Below are positions 12,728 through 64,000 of a stretch of DNA of 64,000 nt, piece after piece (within the stretch, counting starts at the first letter, position 1; each line of letters begins with the position of its first letter). Source of the DNA: an uncultured Desulfomonile sp. (GTDB lineage: Bacteria; Desulfobacterota; Desulfomonilia; Desulfomonilales; Desulfomonilaceae). The notes beneath the pieces were generated by a model. The model saw only the letters and a program-made list of their open reading frames with translations. It was not told where the DNA came from and made no database searches. The position numbers were made by a program, and so were the translations under genes. The stretch covers positions 62,001-126,000 of the forward strand of contig CAJBEZ010000036.1 in the NCBI GenBank assembly GCA_903952205.1, in the 5' to 3' direction.

Positions 12728-13930
12728 CTATTCCATTATCTTTGCCAATGAGGCTTCCAGAATTGTTATCATCTCTTCAATTTCTTGACCTGAGATTATC
12801 AGCGGCGGTAAAAAACGAATAACCGTATCAGATGTGCAGTTTACAAGGACCCCACTATTTCTCATCATCGTTACAAGGTCAGCGCCCGGAATATTTAGTT
12901 CGATGGCCTGCATGAGTCCCATTCCTCTGACCAGTCTCACAACGCTGTATTTCGGGGCCACGTCTTCAAGCCGGGATCTGAGATAACCACTCATGATCCT
13001 TACCCTGTCCAGGAACCCCGGCGACAGGATTTCCGTCAACACCGCAACACCAGCGGCTGATGAGAGAGGATTGCCTCCGAACGTCGTAGCGTGATTTCCC
13101 GGTTTGAATGAGTCAGCCACTCGGTCTGTAGCCAATAGGGCGCCAATAGGGACCCCTCCGGCCAGTCCTTTTGCCAGCGTCATTATGTCCGGCTCAATAC
13201 CGAAGTTTTCATACGCGAACAACTTTCCTGTCCTGCCCATTCCGGTCTGCACTTCATCGAGTATGAGCAATATTCCCTTGTCATCGCAGAGTTTTCTGAC
13301 CTTAAGCAAATATTCGGGAGGTGGAATCTGGATTCCGCCCTCACCCTGAATTGGCTCGATCATAATAGCCGCTGTCTCGGGATTGATTGAACGCTCTAAT
13401 GACTCGTAATCCCCAAAGGGCACATGAGAAAAACCCTGTGTGTGAGGTTCAAAACCATCCCGGTATTTGGTCTGGCCTGTTGCGGCAAGAGTTGCGAGCG
13501 TCCTGCCGTGAAAGGAATTTTTCATAGTAATGATGTGATACCGTTCGTGTTCTCCCCTGTCATGAAAGAACTTTCGAGAGAGTTTTATAGCTCCCTCGTT
13601 GGCCTCAGCCCCGGAATTGCAGAAAAACGCCTTGTCGGCGAAAGAATTTTCCGTCAGCAGTCTTGCGAGTTCTATCTGAGGCTGTATATGGAAAAGATTT
13701 GAAACGTGTATGAGTTTTCCCGCCTGTTCGCAAATAGCTTTCACCAGGACTGGGTGTGCATGTCCAAGGGGGCATGCGGCGAGTCCTCCAACAAAATCCA
13801 GGTATTCTTTGCCTGCGCTGTCCTTAACATGCGCTCCTTTCCCTTCAACAAGCATGATGGGAGAGCGACCATAGGTGTTAAAAACATATTCCTTGTTGGA
13901 AGAAATAAAATCCATTGTTTCTGTTGTCAT
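12728..13930 (-). CDS. argD: Acetylornithine aminotransferase
   Basis: PLP-dependent class III aminotransferase, 400 residues, that converts N-acetylglutamate semialdehyde to N-acetylornithine; many family members also serve as succinyldiaminopimelate aminotransferase. Visible sites are CNSGAEANEGAIKLSRK, FHGRTLATLAATGQ, LDEVQTGMGRTGKLFAYE and the PLP lysine in TLAKGLAGGVPIGA. The neighbours are argB (116 bp upstream) and argF (4 bp downstream). The adjacent lysA-dapA-dapB genes make a double role in arginine and diaminopimelate synthesis plausible but unproven. Confidence 0.95.
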   Translation of the reverse strand: MTTETMDFISSNKEYVFNTYGRSPIMLVEGKGAHVKDSAGKEYLDFVGGLAACPLGHAHPVLVKAICEQAGKLIHVSNLFHIQPQIELARLLTENSFADKAFFCNSGAEANEGAIKLSRKFFHDRGEHERYHIITMKNSFHGRTLATLAATGQTKYRDGFEPHTQGFSHVPFGDYESLERSINPETAAIMIEPIQGEGGIQIPPPEYLLKVRKLCDDKGILLILDEVQTGMGRTGKLFAYENFGIEPDIMTLAKGLAGGVPIGALLATDRVADSFKPGNHATTFGGNPLSSAAGVAVLTEILSPGFLDRVRIMSGYLRSRLEDVAPKYSVVRLVRGMGLMQAIELNIPGADLVTMMRNSGVLVNCTSDTVIRFLPPLIISGQEIEEMITILEASLAKIME

Positions 13931-52612: not shown

Positions 52613-53749
52613 TCAAAACGACCATATGCGGGGAAAATAATAAAACAGTACGGCAAACAGGGCATTTGTAACCGTTAGGACGAATATACATGTCACTACA
52701 GCCGATGTCGTGGCGTACCCAACACTTTCAGCGCCTCCTCTAACCTGAAAACCCCTGAGACAACCTATAGAGGCAATCTCGATTCCAAACACAAGGCTTT
52801 TGATCAAGCCCTTTGTCACGTCACTAATCTCAAGTACTCTTTTAACCTGATTGAAGTAGGCTGTCGGGGTTATGTCAAGAGAGAAACCAGCGACTACGCA
52901 TCCTCCAATAATACCCACGATGTTGGATATCATCGTCAAACAGGGGGCGGCAATCGCCACTGCAATGATTCGTGGACAGACAAGGTACAATATCGGATCT
53001 ATTCCTAAAACTCTAAGAGCGTCAATCTCCTCAGAGACCTGCATCGAACCTATGTGCGCCGCATATCCCGCCCCCGAGCGTCCGGAAATTATGATCGACG
53101 TCAACAAGGGGCCCATTTCAAGACAGATGGATACGCTCACGAGGTCAGCGACAAAGATATTCGCTCCAAATTTGCGAAGTTGGATGGCAGCCTGAAAGGC
53201 TAGAATGCACCCCATGAGGAAACCAAGCGCAGTCACTATGGGAACAGCGTCCACACCCGCTTTTTCGAATAGCTTAGCCAATCCCTCCCACTTAATTGAA
53301 CCCGAGCGCCGGAGACCTGACCAGAAAGCGTCAACGACTCCTCCTATGAAAGTGATCATATCGGCGGAACTATTCCTGAGATTAGATATCCCGTGCTTGA
53401 TTTGCGTCGCGACATCAGGCTCATCGATTCCGTCCAGGATTCCCATGGTAGCGTGAGAGTCTGACAGGCGGCTCTCCAAGAAACGTTTTCCCCCTGACGG
53501 AATGTTTATCAACGTGGCATTGTTACTGAATTTGTTACAATTCCGGACAAAATTCCTGATTACGGCTATACCGGCTCCATCGAGATAATCAAGTCCTCCT
53601 AAATCGAGTTTTACATTTATAAGCGGCTGAGCTTCTAATATGTTCAATAATTCCCGATCGAGAGCAACGGCTTCTTCGACCGACGCATTTCCAGTGATCT
53701 CTATCAGGAGTTCATCAAACGATTGTTGTCTAAATTTTATTTGAAACAT
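52613..53749 (-). CDS. mlaE: STAS-MlaE fusion permease
   Basis: 378 residues. The first about 100 residues form a STAS domain (KLDLGGLDYLDGAGIAVIRNF), the role played by separate MlaB in E. coli. Residues 120-378 are the MlaE permease (FWSGLRRSGSIKWEGLAKLFEKAGVDAVPIVTALGFLMG ... ISGRSGAGYAAHIGSMQVSEEIDALRVLGIDPILYLVCPR), with five membrane helices. The fusion replaces MlaB. It is the promoter-proximal gene of the cluster. Confidence 0.93.
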   Translation of the reverse strand: MFQIKFRQQSFDELLIEITGNASVEEAVALDRELLNILEAQPLINVKLDLGGLDYLDGAGIAVIRNFVRNCNKFSNNATLINIPSGGKRFLESRLSDSHATMGILDGIDEPDVATQIKHGISNLRNSSADMITFIGGVVDAFWSGLRRSGSIKWEGLAKLFEKAGVDAVPIVTALGFLMGCILAFQAAIQLRKFGANIFVADLVSVSICLEMGPLLTSIIISGRSGAGYAAHIGSMQVSEEIDALRVLGIDPILYLVCPRIIAVAIAAPCLTMISNIVGIIGGCVVAGFSLDITPTAYFNQVKRVLEISDVTKGLIKSLVFGIEIASIGCLRGFQVRGGAESVGYATTSAVVTCIFVLTVTNALFAVLFYYFPRIWSF

Positions 53750-53822
53750 TTGATTCTCGGGGCTAGGACCAAGTCAACCTCTCAATCAAGCCGCATAAAG
53801 TAAGATTGCCGGCGCTCCACAC

Positions 53823-55802
53823 TTAATCATTGAAATCGAAGAACTCTTTCAAGTCGCTAAGCGACCTCGTCATAGGACTCTTTTGCAGACTCTGAAAAAA
53901 CATCTTGCCATAACTTTTTGACAGAATTCTAGGATCCATGACACATAAGGCGCCTCTGTCGTTTCTAGTTCTAATGAGTCTCCCCAGTCCCTGTTTCAAG
54001 GCAATTACAGCCATTGGAACCTGAAGCAGAAAAAAGGGGTTCTTTCCTGCCGATCTCAAAAGATCAACGCGAGTTGACAAGATTGGATCGTCGGGAGGAG
54101 CGAATGGCAATTTATCTATTATGACACACGACAAAGATTCACCTTGAACATCAACCCCTTCCCAAAAGGACGATGTCCCCAAGAGCACCGCTCCGCTCTT
54201 GGATTTGAATTCCTCGATAAGCCTCGATTTCGGCCTCGTGCCTTGCAGGAGTAACGGGAAGCTCATGGTTCCTTTCAACTTTTCATAAACACTTTCCATA
54301 TTCCTGATAGACGTGAAAAGCACAAACGCTCTACCTTGGGTCACCGAAAGGATTTCTCCAATGTTTTCCGCCAAGAGCGAGACAAATTCTCCGGAATTAG
54401 GTTCCGGCATTGATTTGGGGATATAAAAAAGAGTTTGAGCGCCATAATCGAAGGGGCTCCCGAGGATCACCTCTTTAGGGGAAAATGTTCCATTCAGTCC
54501 AACACTGGATCTAAAATATTCGAATGATCCACTTGTAGCCAACGTGGCTGAGGTAAAGACAAGACTTGGAATTTTCTCGTACAATCTTTTCCGCAAGGCT
54601 GAGCCAACCTCTATCGGACACGCGTGCGCGCTGATGACCCGATCTTTTTTCTCGATCCATGTCGCATAGTCTTTGGCGGAAGAAGTTCCAAATATAGTGT
54701 CTATTTCGATGCGAAGATCCTGAACCCTTTGGATCAGGATCTTGAGTTCTTCTCTCGCCTTGGGGCTAGCCGATATCATAGAAGACAAACTGTCTAGAGA
54801 TTGAGACAAGTTTTCTCTGGCCTCCATGACACGTCTGTCAGTTGAGTCTATTTTAGCTTTTTGAATTTGAATGTCCTCAAATATACCAAACAAATTCCTT
54901 GCGTTATCGTCTGTTTTTCTGAGTTCCCTCTCAAATTTCTCTCCATGAATTTCGGCCTCAGTGAGTTGGAATCTGCAATCTTTAACAAACTTTCTAATCT
55001 TGTGGACTCCGCAATGGAACCCAAAATGTTGAGTCACCGCTTCTTCAAAACCATGCGCTTCATCAATTATCAGGGCGTCGAAACGCGGTATGACCTCCCC
55101 TCTGCCGCTTGACCTAACAGCCATATCAGAAGCCAGCAGACTGTGATTGACTACAACCAACTGAACATCACCAGCCTTATACCTCATTTTCTGGACGAAG
55201 CATCGCTCAAAGTCCTCACAGCTACGCCCCAGACATGTTTCAGCCGTAGAACAGATCTCCGACCAGACACGACTTTCGTCCGGGAGGGAATCTATTTCGA
55301 CTCTGTCTCCTTCGCCCTGAACCAGGGTTAATTGGTACCATTTCAGAATTTTTTCGAGAAGTTCGCTTTCCCATTGCTCGTAAAAACTCGCCTGTCGGAG
55401 AAAGTCCCTAAGCCTTCTGTGGCATACAAAATTGCTTCTGCCTTTCATAAGGGCCGCTTTGAGGTCGGGGAAAATGTTTTCTTTCACAAAGGGGATGTCT
55501 TTGAAGAAAAGTTGTTCCTGAAGATTTTTAGTCCCAGTCGAAATGGCGACTTTTTTTCCACTTAGAACAGCGGCTACCAGGTAGGCCAAAGTTTTTCCAG
55601 TCCCGGTCGGAGCTTCAATGATCAGGGTATCATCAGCCATCATCGCTGAGAGGACTGCTTCGCTCATGGCAAGTTGCTGTCCCCGAAATTCATATTGAGC
55701 GATAGAACTTGCCATAATCCCATCAGGTCCAAAAATATCGTGGATTTTACCTATACTTGAATCTTTGTTGTCGTTCTCTCTCAATCGCTTACAACCAGTC
55801 AT
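53823..55802 (-). CDS. dinG: DinG/XPD-family ATP-dependent helicase with iron-sulfur cluster
   Basis: About 659 residues. Motif I EAPTGTGKTLAYLVAAVL, Ia STGTKNLQEQL and motif II IIDEAHGFEEAV. The Fe-S cysteines lie between I and II (CSTAETCLGRSCEDFERCF). Motif V/VI is LGTSSFWEGVDVQGESL and KQGLGRLIRTRND. The organisation matches DinG/YoaA 5'-3' helicases that act in repair of stalled forks and R-loops. The frame runs to 55862 within the cobB copy. I give ATG 55802, just past the cobB stop; ATG 55838 is an alternative and neither has a clear ribosome site. Confidence 0.87.
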   Translation of the reverse strand: MTGCKRLRENDNKDSSIGKIHDIFGPDGIMASSIAQYEFRGQQLAMSEAVLSAMMADDTLIIEAPTGTGKTLAYLVAAVLSGKKVAISTGTKNLQEQLFFKDIPFVKENIFPDLKAALMKGRSNFVCHRRLRDFLRQASFYEQWESELLEKILKWYQLTLVQGEGDRVEIDSLPDESRVWSEICSTAETCLGRSCEDFERCFVQKMRYKAGDVQLVVVNHSLLASDMAVRSSGRGEVIPRFDALIIDEAHGFEEAVTQHFGFHCGVHKIRKFVKDCRFQLTEAEIHGEKFERELRKTDDNARNLFGIFEDIQIQKAKIDSTDRRVMEARENLSQSLDSLSSMISASPKAREELKILIQRVQDLRIEIDTIFGTSSAKDYATWIEKKDRVISAHACPIEVGSALRKRLYEKIPSLVFTSATLATSGSFEYFRSSVGLNGTFSPKEVILGSPFDYGAQTLFYIPKSMPEPNSGEFVSLLAENIGEILSVTQGRAFVLFTSIRNMESVYEKLKGTMSFPLLLQGTRPKSRLIEEFKSKSGAVLLGTSSFWEGVDVQGESLSCVIIDKLPFAPPDDPILSTRVDLLRSAGKNPFFLLQVPMAVIALKQGLGRLIRTRNDRGALCVMDPRILSKSYGKMFFQSLQKSPMTRSLSDLKEFFDFND

Positions 55803-55824
55803 GCCTTGAATAAATAATTTGGGG

Positions 55825-57240
55825 TTAACTTTTATCATCCGTCTTGGTAAAAGACGTCTCATGGTAATTCCGGGCCTGATTCAAAATACCCGTAGCCCAT
55901 AAAGGCGCCCCGAGAGTGTGCAAATGAAGATAGGTCCCCAGCGCCTTATACCGGAATATACCATCAACAGAACCATTTATTCCGTGTCCCCGAATAACTT
56001 TGAACGCGTAAGAGTTGGTGTTGATATTATCTGAAGGAATGAATGAATAATGAAATTCATGGCCTTTAAGTACCGATCCCACGGGGAAAAATGGATTTGA
56101 AACGACGACGTTTACGACCATGTATCCATGTCCCTGAGGTCTTCTCTCAAGTACTGTCTCAACGTCAAAAACACCAACCATTGGATAAGTTGTTTCGTCT
56201 ATGGTTAATTGTCTGGCAAGATACATTAACCCACCACATTCAGCGTAAACAGGTAGGCCTGATTTTATAGCCAAAAGCAAAGACTCCTTGAATGTTGTGT
56301 TCTTGGCCAGAACTTCAGCGTGCGTCTCCGGGAAACCTCCGCCAATATAAAGGGCGTCGACTCGCGGCAGTGGCCTTGGTTCCAGGGCTGTAATCTCAAC
56401 CAAAGTGGCCCCTGTTGACGTCAATGCCTGCAGGTTCTCGGGATAATAGAATTGAAATGCAGAATCCCTCAAGATGCCGATTCTAAGATTTTCGTGTTCT
56501 AACATGGCCCCGGATTGGTTTTCCAAAATCCTAGGGCAATCAAGAGGATCTGCGGACTTGGCCAATTTCATCAAATGGTCCAGATCTATTGACCTTTCCA
56601 CCAGATTGGCCACTGTCTCAACAATTTCATTGGCGCCGGAGTGTTCGGAAAGAGGGAGAAGTCCCAGATGCCTTTGAGGGAAATCCTCAAGATACAGTTT
56701 GTTTATGGCCCCGATAACGGGTATTGAACAATACTCCTCGATAGAATCCCTGAGTGTTTTTTCGTGTCTCGGTCCAGCAACTCTATTCAAGATTACCGAC
56801 TTGATCAAAACATCAGAATCAAGCGCTTGACATCCGAGCACCAGAGCCGCCGCTGTTCTTGTCATTTTAGAGGCGTCCACTACTAAAATTACCGGAGTCT
56901 TGAGTAATTTCGCCAACTCGGCGGAACTGTATTCCCCAGAAGCGTTAACGCCATCGAATAATCCCCTGTTTCCCTCGATTATAGATACATCTTGGTCTTT
57001 CGCCCACTTGCAAAAGGACTTTTTTAGAGTTTCCCTGTCAAATAGATATGAATCCAGATTCCTACAGGGACGCTGAGCCGCCTTGCCTAACCAGCCGGCG
57101 TCAATATAATCCGGTCCTTTCTTGAAGACTGCGACGGACAATCCTCGTCTTCTCAAAGCGGCGGTGATTCCTATTGAAAGTAAGGTCTTGCCTGATCCGC
57201 CCCTTAGAGCTCCGATAATTATCCTCGGCGCATTTTGCAT
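55825..57240 (-). CDS. CobB/CbiA-type amidotransferase (DsrN-like), copy 1
   Basis: 471 residues. N-terminal P-loop synthetase domain (GALRGGSGKTLLSIGITAAL, GPDYIDAGWLG, EGNRGLFDGVNASGEYSSAELAKLL) and C-terminal glutamine amidotransferase with nucleophile Cys in YAECGGLMYLARQL and the His in LKGHEFHYSFIP. The family amidates the a and c carboxylates of cobyrinate or, as DsrN beside dsr genes, the siroheme of sulfite reductase. Placement near dsrABD and absence of any other cobalamin gene in the window favour siroheme amidation. A second full-length paralogue lies 22 bp upstream; the pair shares the same motif order but differs in many positions. Confidence 0.88.
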   Translation of the reverse strand: MQNAPRIIIGALRGGSGKTLLSIGITAALRRRGLSVAVFKKGPDYIDAGWLGKAAQRPCRNLDSYLFDRETLKKSFCKWAKDQDVSIIEGNRGLFDGVNASGEYSSAELAKLLKTPVILVVDASKMTRTAAALVLGCQALDSDVLIKSVILNRVAGPRHEKTLRDSIEEYCSIPVIGAINKLYLEDFPQRHLGLLPLSEHSGANEIVETVANLVERSIDLDHLMKLAKSADPLDCPRILENQSGAMLEHENLRIGILRDSAFQFYYPENLQALTSTGATLVEITALEPRPLPRVDALYIGGGFPETHAEVLAKNTTFKESLLLAIKSGLPVYAECGGLMYLARQLTIDETTYPMVGVFDVETVLERRPQGHGYMVVNVVVSNPFFPVGSVLKGHEFHYSFIPSDNINTNSYAFKVIRGHGINGSVDGIFRYKALGTYLHLHTLGAPLWATGILNQARNYHETSFTKTDDKS

Positions 57241-57262
57241 TCTATGTGTCCCAAAGAATCAG

Positions 57263-58699
57263 TTACTTGATATTTTCTTCCAATGAACAAGCGTCGGATT
57301 TTATCTTCCTGGCGACACGGAAATTTTTGGCCTTTCGGACAATAGAACCTGCCCATTCCGGCTCACCTAGAGAATGGATATGAGTGTAGAGCCCCAGAGC
57401 GTTTTTGACCGCAAGGCCATCGTGCGCGCCATCAATTCCTTGTCCACGCAAAACATCGAAAGCCCAAAACTCTTGATTTGGATAATCCAACACCATTGTC
57501 GAATAATGAAATTCGTGTCCTCGCAAAGTTAGGCCGCCATCAAAAAAAGGGTTGGACCCTCTAGCTTTGAGTTCAACATATCCCAAACCCTGTGGTTTCC
57601 GATTCAATACTGATTTGGCCGAGAAAACACCCGCCATCGGAAATACCTTAGTGTCTATCACGAGGCTCTTGGCTAGAAACATCAACCCTCCACATTCCGC
57701 ATACACCGGCCCTCCAGATTCAACAAATGATTTTATTGATTGCCGAAATATAAGGTTTTCAGCAAGTCTTTCGGCGTGTGTTTCGGGAAATCCGCCACCG
57801 ATATAAAGCGCGTCTATATCCGGCAAAGGTTTGGACTCAAGGGAATTTATTTCAACTATGTTCGCTCCATTCAAAATTAACGCTTCAAGGTTTTCCGGGT
57901 AATAAAACTGAAAAGCGGCGTCGTGAAGAATACCTATCTCGATACTATTGACGCTTCCTGTCTTGAGCAGCTCAGGTTCCAGATTCAGCAGATGAGAGTT
58001 AGGAGGAATTGGGCCTTGAAAGGCTATCCTCTCTATTTCCTCCAAATCTAAACCACTCTCTATGATTGCCCTGGCTTCTTCCACGAAATCGATGGCCGAT
58101 GGATGCTCCTGTATGGGTAATAAACCAAGATGTCTTTGAGGAAAGTTCCTGAGCTTCATACTGGGAATAACTCCCACTACTGGGATTGTGGTTATTCGCT
58201 CAATCGCCTGCCTAACTACATGTTCGTGCCTCGTCCCTTTGATCCTGTTCAGAATTATGCCTGAGATCTGAAGCTCCGGATCAAACTGTTGACATCCCTT
58301 AACTAAAGCGGCGGCAGTTCCCGTCATCTTGGAGCAATCAATTATCATCAGTGTGGGACTTCGCAAAAGCTTAGACAATTCAGCGCTGCTCGAAGACCCA
58401 CTATTGTCAACACCGTCGAAAAGACCTCTATTTCCCTCGATTATGGAAATATCTGAATTTAGAGATCTTCTGATGAACGAATTTAAGACGGTCTCTTCGG
58501 AGAAGAGGTGTTGATCTAGATTATAACAGGGCCTCCCGGCGGAAAGACTCAACCATCCCGCGTCTATATAGTCCGGCCCCTTTTTGAACACGCTAGGAAC
58601 CAGACCCCTTTTACGAATAGCAGCCACAAGGCCTACAGTTACAAGTGTCTTGCCTGATCCACCTTTAAGAGCAGTGATGAGAAGACTGGGGATCCTCAT
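57263..58699 (-). CDS. CobB/CbiA-type amidotransferase (DsrN-like), copy 2
   Basis: 478 residues. Domains as in copy 1: TALKGGSGKTLVTVGLVAAI, GPDYIDAGWLSLSAGRPCYNLDQ, EGNRGLFDGVDNSGSSSSAELSKLL, then the amidotransferase with YAECGGLMFLAKSL and LRGHEFHYSTMV, and YIGGGFPETHAERL. Both catalytic centres are intact, so both copies appear functional. It begins only 3 bp after the stop of the unrecognised 459-residue gene, suggesting translational coupling. The overall likeness of the two copies indicates tandem duplication followed by divergence. Possible tasks are amidation of different side chains or different substrates, such as siroheme and cobyrinate. Confidence 0.88.
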   Translation of the reverse strand: MRIPSLLITALKGGSGKTLVTVGLVAAIRKRGLVPSVFKKGPDYIDAGWLSLSAGRPCYNLDQHLFSEETVLNSFIRRSLNSDISIIEGNRGLFDGVDNSGSSSSAELSKLLRSPTLMIIDCSKMTGTAAALVKGCQQFDPELQISGIILNRIKGTRHEHVVRQAIERITTIPVVGVIPSMKLRNFPQRHLGLLPIQEHPSAIDFVEEARAIIESGLDLEEIERIAFQGPIPPNSHLLNLEPELLKTGSVNSIEIGILHDAAFQFYYPENLEALILNGANIVEINSLESKPLPDIDALYIGGGFPETHAERLAENLIFRQSIKSFVESGGPVYAECGGLMFLAKSLVIDTKVFPMAGVFSAKSVLNRKPQGLGYVELKARGSNPFFDGGLTLRGHEFHYSTMVLDYPNQEFWAFDVLRGQGIDGAHDGLAVKNALGLYTHIHSLGEPEWAGSIVRKAKNFRVARKIKSDACSLEENIK

Positions 58700-58702
58700 T
58701 TG

Positions 58703-60082
58703 TTATACTTGGATGTCTTCAAGAGAGATAATTTCATCAGCGAATGAAAGGGTCTGCCAATTCTGGAATACGGTAAAAATGTGGTTGACCAGGTTTTTAC
58801 TGATTATTTTAAAATCAGGAGCTCTTTTATCATAAGACTCCAATATTGTAACGAACACCTCTGTCCATTCCTGGATGGTTTTCAATCGTGCTATTTTAAC
58901 AAAATTGTGACAAAATTTTGTCATGTCACTGTCCAGATAATTTCTGGCGATAATGCCTCTTATAAAACCGCGCATTATGCCCTCGAGGAATCCGTCCCCC
59001 AACCAGACAAAATCCCCTACCCCGTCAATGCGATCGAGTCTGGCCCTCACCGTGATGTTGGCTAAAAACATTATCAGAGCGTCATTTATGTTTTCCTCCG
59101 AATCCTCAGTGAAGATGATTCGATTTCCATATTGCCTGACGGTTATCAACTTTAAATCAGGATTTGGAGATAACTTGGCGATGAAATCTCCAGCAGCCAG
59201 ATGCCATGGATAAATCTCCCGGAGTGATTCAAGATCGAAAAAACAGGTGAGTATGTAGGCGACTCTTTCAATCATCTTAACCGCTAAGTCTTCTTTAATC
59301 TCTCTATAACCATTGTCTGTATCCCAAAAGGTAAAAACAGCTTGCTTTCCTGGGACCAAACTTGAGACATGGAATTCATGATAGCCTCTGAACCACTCTC
59401 CCAAGAACATCAAGTTGGGTGTTTCAGTAATATTTGAACTACGGTCCGACGAATCGCTTATGAAATAAACTTCGGGAACAAATCTCTGATCGCCCATGGT
59501 TCCCAAGAATCTCATCAAATTATAATCCTGCTTGATTCTTGAAATTCCTCGATCGGTCAACGCTACATTCGCCACAAACCATAGCTGGTCCCGGCCACTG
59601 TGGACTCTGACTGAGGCCGGGAAATAATCAGCGCCTCTTTTTTCAGCAACCAGATCTATCAACTGGATTTCTTTATCAAACCACTGGGCCTTTTTCTTGA
59701 CAATTTCTTCAAATTCTTCAAAGTTCTCGACAATAAAAGTTTGTATTGCCGTCAAATATGAACGGTAGGTTAAGGAACCAATCTTTAGGATGGAGGAATC
59801 TTTACAAAGCGGGACTGCGCTCTTCAGGAATTCAGAGTTGAGAATTCTCGTTTGCGAGTCTGCTGATGATAGCATGAATCGAAAATCGGGCATTTTGTTT
59901 GACATATTTTGTTTTATATCATGCACGCGGTCTTTAAAGATTTGAGGAACCCGATTTACGCCGAGCCGGTTCTCCCTTGGCAAGTTAAGCATATTAGTCT
60001 CTATTGAAAAGAATGTGAATAGATTCATCTGTGGCTGCTGTATCGGCGACAAAATCCTCTGACATGTGTCCCTTATTTTCAT
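58703..60082 (-). CDS. Uncharacterised 459-residue protein coupled to DsrN-like genes
   Basis: I do not recognise the family. The protein is soluble, without signal peptide or membrane helix, mixed alpha/beta, with a helical C-terminus. Around residues 150-240 the text VANVALTDRGISRIKQDYNLMRFLG, FVPEVYFI and NLMFLGEWFRGYHEFHV has the rhythm of an N-lobe and hinge of an aminoglycoside-phosphotransferase/kinase-like fold. Later, YPWHLAAGDFIAKL and KLITVRQYG lie where a catalytic HxD-like loop would be. This likeness is faint and unproven. The ATG at 60082 has a weak AAGAAG site upstream; inner ATGs exist. The gene leads an operon with two amidotransferases and is divergent from dsrABD, which suggests a task in sulfite reductase or siroheme maturation. 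Confidence 0.78.
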   Translation of the reverse strand: MKIRDTCQRILSPIQQPQMNLFTFFSIETNMLNLPRENRLGVNRVPQIFKDRVHDIKQNMSNKMPDFRFMLSSADSQTRILNSEFLKSAVPLCKDSSILKIGSLTYRSYLTAIQTFIVENFEEFEEIVKKKAQWFDKEIQLIDLVAEKRGADYFPASVRVHSGRDQLWFVANVALTDRGISRIKQDYNLMRFLGTMGDQRFVPEVYFISDSSDRSSNITETPNLMFLGEWFRGYHEFHVSSLVPGKQAVFTFWDTDNGYREIKEDLAVKMIERVAYILTCFFDLESLREIYPWHLAAGDFIAKLSPNPDLKLITVRQYGNRIIFTEDSEENINDALIMFLANITVRARLDRIDGVGDFVWLGDGFLEGIMRGFIRGIIARNYLDSDMTKFCHNFVKIARLKTIQEWTEVFVTILESYDKRAPDFKIISKNLVNHIFTVFQNWQTLSFADEIISLEDIQV

Positions 60083-60101
60083 AAAACTTCTTGAACAGTC
60101 T

Positions 60102-60130
60102 ATTCAAACGAACTCACTGAGTGAGTTCAA
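60102..60130 (-). promoter_or_regulatory. Candidate promoter for the 459-residue gene and DsrN operon
   Basis: On the minus strand TTGAAC (60130-60125) and TTGAAT (60107-60102) are separated by 17 bp, and the start codon is at 60082. Each hexamer matches four of six consensus bases. The 19-bp dyad lies almost entirely between the two hexamers, a common repressor position. Confidence 0.4.
60110..60128. promoter_or_regulatory. Perfect 19-bp dyad, probable operator in the dsr divergent region
   Basis: GAACTCACT (60110-60118) and AGTGAGTTC (60120-60128) are exact complements around a single central G. A second, smaller dyad TTGAA-N7-TTCAA lies at 60091-60107. The 311-bp region 60083-60393 has no gene. 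A site of this length and symmetry is what a dimeric repressor or activator would bind; no regulator gene is adjacent. Confidence 0.6.
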
Positions 60131-60182
60131 TTGATGAGAAGTCTGAGAAGATGTTATTTACTAAAAATGTTGGATTTTTTTC

Positions 60183-60211
60183 TTGACTTGATGAAGCCAT
60201 TTGCATTAAAT
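60183..60211 (+). promoter_or_regulatory. Candidate sigma-70 promoter of dsrABD
   Basis: TTGACT (60183-60188) and TTAAAT (60206-60211) with a 17-bp spacer. The match is five of six and four of six. It predicts a leader of about 175 bases before the dsrA ATG, long enough for post-transcriptional control. Confidence 0.5.
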
Positions 60212-60393
60212 TTTTAAGAATCTTCAATTCGGTGGCCTTTTTCATTCATGCTCTATAAATTCGCTGGTTTGAATACATTTTAAATTTGCATGAAGAACTT
60301 GAACAGTCGGGTCTACCGGCGTTTTTTTTCTGGTCACTCGAATAGATCGCGATTAGTTGAAACGAAGACCCAAGTAGAGAGGAGGAACCTTTA

Positions 60394-61683
60394 ATGGGAA
60401 AACACAATACCCCTATGCTTGATGAATTGGAAAAGGGTCCGTGGCCCAGTTTTGTTTCTGATATCAAGCAGCAGGTGGCAAACGGAAAACATGTTCTTAA
60501 AGAAGCTCCAGATGACCTATTAGGAGTGATGGAATTGTCTTACGTGGACAAGGTCACCCATTGGAAACATGGTGGAATCGTTGGCGTATTCGGTTACGGC
60601 GGCGGGATCATTGGACGTTATTGCGATCAGCCTCAAATGTTCCCCGGCGTGGCGCATTTCCATACAGTGCGTGTGAACCAACCTTCTAGCAAATTCTATA
60701 CCGCCAAATACTTGAGAGAGCTTTGTGATCTGTGGGAACGCCACGGAAGCGGCCTCACCAACATGCATGGATCAACTGGCGATATCGTGTTCTTAGGCAC
60801 AACCACTGATCATCTTGAGCCTCTATTCTTTGAAATGACTCATGAACTGAATCAGGACCTCGGCGGCTCAGGATCTAACCTGAGAACCCCCGAGTGTTGT
60901 TTAGGTCAATCCAGGTGCGAATTCGCTTGCTATGACACTCAGGAAGCCTGCGACAACCTTACTCACGAATATCAGGACGAATTGCATCGACCAGCTTTCC
61001 CTTACAAGTTTAAGTTCAAGTTTGATGGTTGCCCGAATGGTTGCGTGGCCTCCATTGCGCGTTCGGACATGTCTTTTATCGGAACCTGGAGAGACAACAT
61101 CCGTATCGACCAGGCCGCAGTTAAGGCTTACGTGGGCGGAGAATTTGCTCCTAACGCGGGCGCTTATTCAGGTCGAGATTGGGGAAAATTCGATATCCAG
61201 AAGGAAGTTGTTGATCTTTGCCCCACAGGCTGCATGAGATGGGATGGATCCAAACTTGAAATAAATGATAAAGAATGCGTCCGCTGCATGCATTGCCTGA
61301 ATGTTATGCCCAGGGCTCTGAGAAAAGGTCTGGACACTGGAGTTTCAATACTTTTTGGCGCAAAAGCTCCGATCTTGGAAGGCGCCCAGATGTCAACTCT
61401 GACCGTTCCTTTCCTAAAAATGGAATCACCCTTTTCTGAAGCTAAAGATCTTGTCGAGAAAGTTTGGGATTGGTGGATGGAAGAAGGCAAGAACCGTGAG
61501 CGTCTAGGTGAATTGATTCAGAGGAAAACCTTCCAGGAATTCCTGAGAGTCTGCGAACTGGATCCTGACCCACGAATGGTTGATGAGCCGAGATCCAACC
61601 CATACATTTTCTGGAAAGAAGAAGAAGTCGAGGGTGGATGGACCCGAGACATCGACGCTTTCCGAGCGAAACATCAGAGGTAA
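60394..61683 (+). CDS. dsrA: Dissimilatory sulfite reductase, alpha subunit
   Basis: 429 residues. DsrA2B2 reduces sulfite with six electrons, delivering sulfur to DsrC as a trisulfide. The siroheme/[4Fe-4S] ligands are in CCLGQSRCEFACYD and DGCPNGCVAS. The inserted ferredoxin domain has VVDLCPTGCMRWDG and ECVRCMHCLNVMP. The N-terminal block KHGGIVGVFGYGGGIIGRYCDQP and LTNMHGSTGDIVFLGT are strictly conserved in dsrA. AGAGGAGG precedes the ATG. It is the marker gene of dissimilatory sulfate/sulfite metabolism; the reductive type is assumed from the presence of dsrD. Confidence 0.98.
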   Translation: MGKHNTPMLDELEKGPWPSFVSDIKQQVANGKHVLKEAPDDLLGVMELSYVDKVTHWKHGGIVGVFGYGGGIIGRYCDQPQMFPGVAHFHTVRVNQPSSKFYTAKYLRELCDLWERHGSGLTNMHGSTGDIVFLGTTTDHLEPLFFEMTHELNQDLGGSGSNLRTPECCLGQSRCEFACYDTQEACDNLTHEYQDELHRPAFPYKFKFKFDGCPNGCVASIARSDMSFIGTWRDNIRIDQAAVKAYVGGEFAPNAGAYSGRDWGKFDIQKEVVDLCPTGCMRWDGSKLEINDKECVRCMHCLNVMPRALRKGLDTGVSILFGAKAPILEGAQMSTLTVPFLKMESPFSEAKDLVEKVWDWWMEEGKNRERLGELIQRKTFQEFLRVCELDPDPRMVDEPRSNPYIFWKEEEVEGGWTRDIDAFRAKHQR

Positions 61684-61698
61684 AGGGAGGTCAACAAG

Positions 61699-62817
61699 AT
61701 GCCTTACGATCCCAGTGAACCGTTGAAAGATAGAATTACTGATATTGGCCCCAGACACTATGGGGAATTCCTTCCACCCGTGATTAAGAAAAACAAGGGC
61801 AAATGGCTGTATCACGAAATTTTACAGCCAGGGGTGCTTGTTCATGTCGCCGAGTCTGGAGACAAGGTCTTCAGTGTTCGTGTCGGTGGCTGCCGTTTGA
61901 TGAGTGTCGAGCATCTCCGTGAGATCTGCGACATAGCCGACAAATACTGTGACGGTTATCTCAGATTCACCACTAGGAACAACATTGAGTTCCTTCTGGC
62001 CGATGAATCCAAACTAAAACCCCTGGTTGACGATCTCAAAAGCCGCAAGTTCAGTGGCGGATCTAACAAATTCCCCGTTGGCGGGACAGGGGCGGGCGTC
62101 ACCAACATAGTTCACACTCAGGGCTGGGCTCATTGCCACACCCCGGCGATTGACGCTTCTGGAGTGGTCAAGGCCGTCATGGACGCAATTTATGATGAAT
62201 TCGACCACATGAAACTACCGGCCCCAGTTCGCGTATCTCTTGCATGCTGCCTCAACATGTGCGGCGCAGTTCATTGCTCTGACATCGCCATTCTTGGTAT
62301 TCATCGCAAGCCACCTATGGTGGATGGTGAGTGGATCGATAAACTCTGCGAATTGCCACTTGCGATAGCAGCGTGCCCGACAGGGGCTATTAAGCCGGCT
62401 AAAACGGCAGATGGAAAGAAAAGCCTTGAAGTCAAAGCTGAAAGGTGTATGTTCTGCGGCAACTGCTACACCATGTGCGCAGCAATGCCTCTGGCGGACG
62501 AAGTAGGAAGTGGAATAGCCATTCTGGTCGGCGGAAAGTTGTCGAATAGAATCAGCAAGCCCAAGTTCTCGAAGGTCGTTATTCCGTTTATACCCAACGA
62601 ACCACCTAGATGGCCATCAACCGTCGCAGCGGTCAAGAATATTATTGACGTTTACTCCAAAGACGCCCATAAATATGAGCGGCTTGGGGACTGGGCGGAG
62701 AGAATTGGCTGGGAAAGATTCTTTGAGAAAACCAATATTCCGTTTACTCATCATCTAATTGATGATTACCGTTTTGCATACACAACATGGCGGCAATCGA
62801 CTCAGTTTAAGTTTTAA
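61699..62817 (+). CDS. dsrB: Dissimilatory sulfite reductase, beta subunit
   Basis: 372 residues. Partner of DsrA that carries the catalytically active siroheme in known structures. Visible are [57 protein letters not shown] and [16 protein letters not shown] for the cluster/siroheme site. The ferredoxin domain has [11 protein letters not shown] and [12 protein letters not shown]. It starts 15 bp after dsrA behind GGGAGGT and ends 20 bp before dsrD. Confidence 0.98.
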
Positions 62818-62837
62818 TCGGTGGAAAGGAGCTTTCC

Positions 62838-63074
62838 ATGACCGAGGAAGAAGCAAAAAAAATTATCCTTGAAGCGCTGCAAGGCAAATCAGCGGCTAAA
62901 TCCAAGTTTTATCTCAAGGATTTTTACGCTATGATCCCTGACATGAAGGCTAGGGAAGTAAAAAACATTGTTAACCGGATGGTTTCCGAGGGTACACTGG
63001 AATATTGGTCCAGCGGGAGCACCACGCTGATCGGTCTGAAAGGTATGGGTAAACAGCATTCAGAGGAAGATTAA
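62838..63074 (+). CDS. dsrD: DsrD, activator of dissimilatory sulfite reductase
   Basis: 78 residues. Winged-helix fold: LKDFYAMIPDMKAREVKNIVNRMVSEGTLEYWSSGSTTLIGLKGMG. In sulfate reducers this small protein binds DsrAB and raises its activity; despite the fold it is not known to act as a classical regulator. AAGGAG precedes the ATG. dsrD is restricted to organisms with the reductive Dsr pathway, supporting a sulfate or sulfite reducer. It is followed by a strong terminator. Confidence 0.96.
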   Translation: MTEEEAKKIILEALQGKSAAKSKFYLKDFYAMIPDMKAREVKNIVNRMVSEGTLEYWSSGSTTLIGLKGMGKQHSEED

Positions 63075-63126
63075 TATTCGACCCTAGTGTTGTTGGACTG
63101 ATCTCAAAAATTAAATAGCCGCAACG

Positions 63127-63159
63127 AAGAGGGAGACCTATATAAAAGGTCTTCCTCTT
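63127..63159. terminator. Bidirectional terminator after dsrD
   Basis: A 13-bp stem (63127-63139 with 63147-63159, one G-T wobble) and a 7-base A/T loop (63140-63146); a T-rich tract follows. It lies between the convergent dsrD and PrmA-like genes and overlaps the latter's stop codon. Confidence 0.8.
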
Positions 63160-63838
63160 AATCTTTGTGACCACTATCCTTTTTTCTGAAAACCATTCCG
63201 TTCCACTCGCTCATACGGACAGTATCTTCTAGGTCTGTCTTTTCTCCGGAAAACTCTCTCTGAATTAAATCAACCATTGAGTCAGGTATCCCTGACAGAA
63301 TGAGATAATGTCCCGAGCGAGCAATGAGTTCTGTTTTAAGCCGTCTAAGGACTGGAGCGGCCAAATTTGCCACCACAAGGTCAAATGTGCATTTAACTGC
63401 GTCTAAAGGACCAACGTAAAAATGTGGGCGTCTCTCATGAGCTTCGGGACGAAGAGTATAATTGAGAACGACGTTCCTCTGGGCCAGCCAGATGGCGGCA
63501 GGATCCAGGTCACAAGCTACTATGAAACCACACCCCAAGGCTTCGGCGGCTATGGCAAGCACACCTGTGCCTGTCCCAATATCGAAGAGGGATAGCGGTT
63601 GCCGACTGCCTGCCATTTGATTGATTGTCTTTTCCAGAAGTTCTAGAGCGATCAGTGTAGTCGGATGATCCCCTGACCCAAATGAAGCGCCGGGATCCAC
63701 CACAATATTGAAGCGGTCCGATTCTGTGCGCCAACAATCCCAGTAGGGAACTACCCTCAAAGTGTCCCCTACATCAACAGAAACCAATCCACCAGTCCAC
63801 CATTTGCCCATGGATTTAGGCCTATTTCGCTTTTTCAT
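63158..63838 (-). CDS. Short PrmA-like (ribosomal protein L11 methyltransferase family) protein
   Basis: 226 residues, versus about 290 for PrmA. The methyltransferase domain is complete: NIVVDPGASFGSGDHPTTLIALELLE (the PrmA-specific DPG-x-x-FG-x-G-x-HPTT signature), SLFDIGTGTGVLAIAAEALG (SAM motif), ACDLDPAAIWLAQRNVVLN and VVANLAAPVLRRLKTEL. What is missing is the N-terminal domain that recognises L11. An in-frame TAA lies three codons upstream of the ATG, so the gene is not simply mis-started. It may still methylate L11 or have another target. Confidence 0.8.
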   Translation of the reverse strand: MKKRNRPKSMGKWWTGGLVSVDVGDTLRVVPYWDCWRTESDRFNIVVDPGASFGSGDHPTTLIALELLEKTINQMAGSRQPLSLFDIGTGTGVLAIAAEALGCGFIVACDLDPAAIWLAQRNVVLNYTLRPEAHERRPHFYVGPLDAVKCTFDLVVANLAAPVLRRLKTELIARSGHYLILSGIPDSMVDLIQREFSGEKTDLEDTVRMSEWNGMVFRKKDSGHKD

Positions 63839-63897
63839 CAGACGTTACCTATCCATTTGAATGAAATCCATGAACAAAATTGGAACCACAGACTCAA

Positions 63898-64000
63898 CTA
63901 TGGGTTGGAAATCTCATATTGCTCCTGGTGCAAATTCTGGTCCGGATTCAGCTCTATGGTTATCCTGTGCTTCTTCTGGATTTCTTCCAGTTTTTCGCTT
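63898..64000 (-). CDS. C-terminal end of an RNase E/G family-like protein (partial)
   Basis: Thirty-three codons and a TAG stop on the minus strand, open to the right edge. The text SEKLEEIQKKHRITIELNPD ends shortly after in NLHQEQYEISNP. The closing HQEQYEI resembles the QEQFDV tail of RNase E/G-type ribonucleases. The frame is the only one of three on that strand that runs clean with coding character. The call rests on a few residues only; it is 59 bp upstream of the PrmA-like gene on the same strand. Confidence 0.45.
   Translation of the reverse strand, partial: SEKLEEIQKKHRITIELNPDQNLHQEQYEISNP

Follow-up and report, generated by a model that had tools for sequence, protein, structure and literature searches.

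DsrN uses glutamine and ATP and is regarded as the enzyme that adds an amide to the siroheme of dissimilatory sulfite reductase; it belongs to a group of amidotransferases that act on related tetrapyrroles. It has its fold family in common with the cobyrinate enzymes CbiA/CobB and is homologous to CfbB, the Ni-sirohydrochlorin a,c-diamide synthase. We examined a window, by which we mean the whole 64,000-nucleotide stretch of DNA from an uncultured Desulfomonile sp., in which the initial annotation had pointed to two such genes near dsrABD and suggested that they carry out two separate amidations or serve two substrates. In the accessible portions of the literature we found no report of paired dsrN genes, or of either of the two residues (DsrN-371 and DsrB-176) on which the present analysis turns.

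A tandem dsrN pair near dsrABD

The two genes had been described as complete members of the CobB/CbiA family, of 471 and 478 residues, each with a P-loop and the amidotransferase Cys/His, and this description was borne out. Copy A (471 aa, His-type; 55825..57240, minus strand) and copy B (478 aa, Leu-type; 57263..58699, minus strand) are intact open reading frames, identified as DsrN through profile matches, tree placement and conserved residues, and both lie above the cut-offs of TIGR00379 (A 433.3 and B 405.6 bits; cut-off 261.4) and NF002204 (431.3 and 411.1 bits; cut-off 254). They have Pfam CbiA and GATase_3 domains, share 52% identity across 467 aligned columns, and both keep G14, G17 and K18 of the P-loop, the GATase Cys335 and His439/His441. 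At the columns conserved in other DsrN, copy A keeps 80 of 81 and copy B 79 of 81, and dN/dS is low (0.07-0.16) wherever dS was usable, which was the case for five of the 21 pairs of A copies and eight of the 15 pairs of B copies.

A gap of 22 bases separates the two copies, which form part of a minus-strand run of tight or overlapping genes leading from a 459-aa gene (58703..60082) through B and A to a DinG/YoaA-type helicase gene (53823..55862; ORF and profile), the latter overlapping the end of A by 38 bases. This run is oriented away from dsrA (60394..61683), dsrB (61699..62817) and dsrD (62838..63074), which lie on the plus strand and were recognised from their ORFs together with profile (dsrA, dsrB) or Pfam (dsrD) matches. 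The pair had been placed next to a divergent dsrABD; the dsr genes are indeed divergent and nearby, but the 459-aa gene sits between B and dsrA, with a divergent gap of 311 bases between it and dsrA. Its product has no Pfam or NCBIfam match, and relatives of it occur near dsrA in many Desulfobacterota stretches. Its predicted model (mean pLDDT 81.7) has a small-molecule kinase, N-acetylhexosamine 1-kinase, as best fold match (Z 13.5, rmsd 4.8, 255 aligned), with a Foldseek E value of 1.6e-4 and low TM-scores, and the gene may possibly encode an unnamed dsr-linked protein of kinase-like fold. A search of positions 53000 to 64000 against Rfam gave no match at gathering score, and no riboswitch at this threshold near the A/B pair; a cobalamin riboswitch was seen in one (L152) of seven stretches from relatives and the genome's own cbi cluster, and scans for promoters and terminators gave results near chance level.

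The A/B tandem is present in 12 of the 18 family genomes. Ten have the whole adjacent pair (G000, G001, G003, G005, G006, G007, G008, G012, G013 and G016), and in two (G004 and G011) it is cut by contig ends. In G010 roughly 100 kb lies between the copies, of which one adjoins the 459-aa gene and the other dinG; a single copy is visible in G014 and G017, G002 and G015 are undecided, and the family survey obtained no DsrN from G009. Because gene order recurs across the family, with the A-copies of relatives also beside dinG, the arrangement is beyond chance. The tree does not firmly resolve A and B as two clades, and AU tests are compatible with both a single-clade A (p 0.50) and a single-clade B (p 0.58). 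A DsrAB tree built by a quick method places the ten rows with duplicates in a group next to the two singles, at a support of 90; they were not together in an earlier, smaller tree, which did not reject their togetherness (p 0.23). The pair may have been gained after the split between duplicates and singles, or it may have been lost in the singles.

Outside the family a second DsrN appears from these surveys to be rare. None was found in 186 DsrN-bearing genomes of the phylum sample, with scoring limited to four candidates in each genome, and in the six phylum-sample genomes with a second match that match was CbiA. We had considered the duplication to be exclusive to the family, which is not quite the case given that two of 49 genomes reached via named loci (G430 and G458) also have two DsrN. 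Those of G430, a Nitrospiraceae MAG (L180, L181), are both His-type and 79% identical, and may represent a real pair or mixed strains. A further observation concerns L068, where a second, partial DsrN-like stretch (13052-13651) whose match contains an internal stop lies 6 kb from the intact gene.

The initial annotation had proposed that both proteins be placed in a tree, and had named clustering of one copy with cobyrinate enzymes as the outcome that would speak against it; this outcome did not occur. A 73-row tree, whose bootstrap had not fully converged, unites A, B and the family single copies with DsrN and separates the 19 CbiA rows from them, with 100/100 for each grouping (five short fragments were left out before the counts). 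Their linkage to dsrAB, in the window and in relatives, and their P-loop, Cys and His residues agree with membership of DsrN, and neither copy clusters with or is encoded among cobalamin enzymes. Three NF002204 matches exist in the whole genome, namely A, B and one on contig C60; the last is a CbiA whose neighbours are a CobD-CobQ fusion, CbiB, CbiC, CbiD, CbiE, CbiL, CbiF and CbiH. The suggestion that the two substrates are siroheme and cobyrinate has been dropped because the genome's CbiA is this third gene, inside the cbi cluster, and a cobyrinate role for A or B is rejected in view of that gene and of their placement in the DsrN clade. The more general idea that two copies suggest two jobs has fared better and is supported here.

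Two other genes of this genome deserve mention. The cobalamin cluster holds an 884-aa fusion of a CobD-like aminotransferase and cobyric acid synthase (L001, 7645-10299), and contig C92 encodes a 269-aa NIR_SIR protein (L166, 660-1469, minus strand), a relative of sulfite reductase subunit C that scores 75.8 against a cut-off of 324.1 bits and is a candidate for a second siroheme protein.

Residue 371 of DsrN and residue 176 of DsrB

Column 371 of the alignment is the only well-covered column that separates all A from all B copies. In the window it is occupied by His371 of copy A (codon 56128..56130, minus strand; motif PQGHGYM) and Leu372 of copy B (codon 57584..57586, minus strand; motif PQGLGYV). 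All 14 A copies have His and all 11 readable B copies have Leu, the twelfth (L131) being partial; the cut B copy of G004 has Leu too, and both family single copies have His. Among 86 other DsrN, drawn mostly by their likeness to copy B, 85 have His and one (L108) has Leu. Leu is also the residue of CbiA (19/19) and of seven of eight plasmid-borne CbiA/CobB, the eighth having Phe. A CbiA-like diamidation by the Leu type is an idea weakened by the single-copy Leu-type DsrN of Desulfovibrio-like genomes. A search by sequence found no solved structure of CbiA or DsrN. In an AlphaFold model of A (mean pLDDT 92.1) residue 371 falls in a strand (370-378) of the amidotransferase half, for which the nearest solved fold is GatD (Z 20.9, rmsd 3.8, 213 aligned); that of the other half is dethiobiotin synthetase (Z 18.7, rmsd 3.0, 199 aligned).

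The Leu type recurs in other lineages. A phylum survey of 60 stretches from 44 families gave 54 His and six Leu, five of the latter in the Desulfovibrio-like family f38 and one in f67. Within the order of G077, where 36 of 39 stretches were readable (L302, L314 and L316 gave no readable DsrN), f38 has 12 Leu and one His (the latter on a G770 contig that is probably foreign to its bin), f113 has nine His and one Leu, and the remainder are all His (six in f111, three each in f112 and f114, one in f115). In f38 the Leu-type gene stands alone, and 5/5 and 12/13 stretches of the two sets, respectively, are Leu. For the Desulfomicrobium-like g279 (DsrB 88-99% to 2XSJ_B) we predicted His beforehand, and found it in all seven readable stretches of eight. 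The L108 genome has one DsrN, of the Leu type, and one CbiA-like gene, and of the two copies of G458 (recorded as Desulfatitalea sp. BRH_c12) one is His-type and dsr-linked, whereas the second is Leu-type and falls with those of f38. Six changes of state are needed on a quick tree that includes f38, f67, L108 and this second G458 copy; judged from these sequences, the Leu type arose repeatedly.

Two loci deserve comment. The Leu-type DsrN of the Desulfatitalea genome (L183, 8800-10230, plus strand) lies away from dsr, beside hypF- and hypD-like genes; it groups with Desulfovibrio-like DsrN and is likely the result of gene transfer. The G770 bin has two dsr loci (L304 and L305), one with a DsrB 94% to 2XSJ_B and a His-type DsrN, the other with the Leu type; it is probably a mixed bin in which the His contig, L304, is foreign.

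We scanned 801 columns of the sulfite reductase (429 of DsrA and 372 of DsrB) against the DsrN type, and DsrB-176, a column thus found with known labels, was the only one to split Leu-bearing from His-only genomes without overlap; the next best column overlapped by 0.367. Its codon in the window (62224..62226, plus strand; motif LPAPVRV) encodes Pro. The 28 Leu-bearing genomes have Pro (23), Ile (3) or Met (2), and the 131 His-only rows have Gln (71), His (30), Lys (25), Arg (2), Leu (2) or Phe (1). Omitted from these counts are small loci duplicating larger ones, and likewise L092, which comes from the genome of L182. With three repeated genomes removed, the residue is polar in 125 of 128 His-only cases, and the three non-polar exceptions are all in f52. 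In the window's family, where column differences between duplicates and singles are readable only with the wider set, the two singles have Gln, the ten duplicates have Pro, and the undecided G015 has Pro. G500 and G557, both of f113, combine a Leu-type DsrN with Ile176.

With this column excluded from the building of the DsrAB tree, both traits switch together in five of five independent pairs, for which the p value of 0.0625 is the minimum reachable, 0.05 being out of reach with five pairs. The pair test used 85 His-only rows (phylum-wide rows with both DsrA and DsrB, 30 randomly chosen earlier rows, and the family's two singles). The pair test and the scan omitted L184, L185 and L188 (repeats of L241, L239 and L240) and also L304, which is His-type with Gln in agreement with the rule, and both counted L182 as having both types since its genome has a Leu copy. 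Of 20 later-fetched stretches (L321 and L334 gave no readable DsrN), 18 were readable for both residues and all 18 agree with the rule: the ten Leu-type stretches have Pro in nine cases and Ile in one, and the eight His-type stretches have Gln in four, His in three and Lys in one. This test is only partly independent, given that nine of the ten Leu genomes are from f38, which was already used, and the His genome G073 had been seen earlier as L138.

DsrB-176 corresponds to residue 181 of 2V4J_B by the alignment rows, and lies a few residues ahead of ACC. 2V4J_B has Pro here, 3OR2_B Ile and 2XSJ_B Gln, and the A. fulgidus DsrB (3MM5_B) has Met at the aligned place. We take 2XSJ to be the desulforubidin of Desulfomicrobium norvegicum, and 3OR1/3OR2 are presumably from D. 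gigas. The ACC belongs to the CXnCCX3C motif, which binds the siroheme-coupled cluster according to the accessible part of PMC10229431, where 2V4J and 3MM5 are also named.

What the two types may do

We consider it reasonably probable (roughly 0.6) that the products of the two DsrN types are amidated siroheme-family cofactors of different chemistry, with DsrB-176 adapted to what the Leu type makes. dsrN would have duplicated within the window's family, with copy A retaining the common His at column 371 and copy B taking the Leu of the second DsrN type. The His and Leu types would then finish the tetrapyrrole differently, the Pro at DsrB-176 would fit the product of the Leu type, and the two-copy cell would make both products for its DsrAB. 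From these sequence patterns we infer a specificity set by column 371, two different products, and the delivery of both of them to DsrAB. The need for two products would not be general, because a lone Leu-type DsrN suffices in f38, f67 and L108. Counter-evidence is provided by G430, with its two His copies, and by the three His-only stretches of f52 with a non-polar DsrB-176. If the proposal is right, it would bear on two old questions, namely the reason for an amidated siroheme in dissimilatory sulfite reductases and the reason for the partly iron-free pigment of some of them (desulfoviridin). A matched pair of residues in enzyme and target names residues to mutate and organisms for cofactor extraction, and the 371/176 pair may make it easy to tell the two types apart by sequence in environmental data.

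Two more specific forms of this model may be considered, each tentative and to a similar degree. One concerns the metal, such that the His type would act on iron siroheme, with His371 sensing or binding iron, and the Leu type would accept metal-free sirohydrochlorin of the kind present in desulfoviridin-type sulfite reductases. The distribution of Leu in Desulfovibrio-like and of His in Desulfomicrobium-like genomes is in its favour, as are the Pro, Ile and Gln of 2V4J_B, 3OR2_B and 2XSJ_B. It is also in line with the desulfoviridin table in the accessible part of PMC8069399, which gives +/- for Desulfovibrio and Desulfococcus and - for Desulfobulbus, Desulfobacterium, Desulfobacter, Desulfosarcina and Desulfomicrobium, and the available text of PMC10229431 has sirohydrochlorin in the DsrAB of D. 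vulgaris. The pure metal reading is nonetheless disfavoured because the Archaeoglobus DsrB has Met at 176 alongside siroheme, as the enzyme is shown in that portion of PMC10229431. In addition, CbiA has a cobalt substrate and yet Leu, and the f113 genomes G500 and G557 have Leu with Ile. A bolder version is slightly more doubtful again, namely that DsrN-371 (His or Leu) sets and DsrB-176 (polar or non-polar) reads two chemotypes of siroheme amidation, the Leu one being desulfoviridin-type with metal-free sirohydrochlorin, and that bacteria with paired dsrN make both and build a sulfite reductase whose two tetrapyrroles are finished differently.

The other form concerns the position or number of the amides, in that the two types might amidate different acetates and two-copy cells might end up with an amide at another place or with a siroheme diamide. 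CfbB and CobB amidate the a and c positions (PMC7242693, in its accessible part), and a,c-diamide synthases have Leu or Phe at column 371 as counted above. Set against this, of the 16 columns that distinguish DsrN from CbiA copy B of the window retains all 15 others, and the lone Desulfovibrio-like copies are Leu in a group with a described monoamide. Matthews 1995 reportedly found this monoamide in Desulfovibrio-like organisms.

The proposal of two DsrN types must also be weighed against other readings. A duplicate kept for dosage or redundancy, with no new task, would suit two copies that are still 52% identical with intact active sites, but it is unlikely in view of the strict His/Leu split across genera, the association with DsrB-176 and the retention of both copies in G010 despite their separation. 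That A and B are unlike subunits of one enzyme is suggested by their adjacency across 22 bases, but is highly improbable given the separated copies of G010, the Leu-type genes standing alone in other families and the active-site residues present in both. Least probable of all is service of one copy to cobyrinate or to the other sulfite reductase-like protein, since although the genome does encode that further NIR_SIR protein, its CbiA lies in the cbi cluster and both copies are dsr-linked members of the DsrN clade.

Comparison with described amidotransferases

The locus most closely resembles DsrN as described in the accessible part of PMC10504309, where it is the siroheme amidase of dissimilatory sulfur metabolism, with the same clade, dsr linkage, domains and conserved residues. 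It differs in that the genome has two copies, one of each residue type; that part of the paper mentions neither duplicates nor types. With CbiA/CobB the pair has the fold family in common and copy B also shares the Leu at column 371, but A and B are only 33-36% identical to their own genome's CbiA, fall in another clade and have no adjoining cbi genes in the stretch seen. CfbB is likewise a homologous enzyme with a sirohydrochlorin-type substrate (PMC7242693, in the part available), but both copies score below the cut-off of 560 bits of its model NF033195 (A 422.7 and B 397.4 bits).
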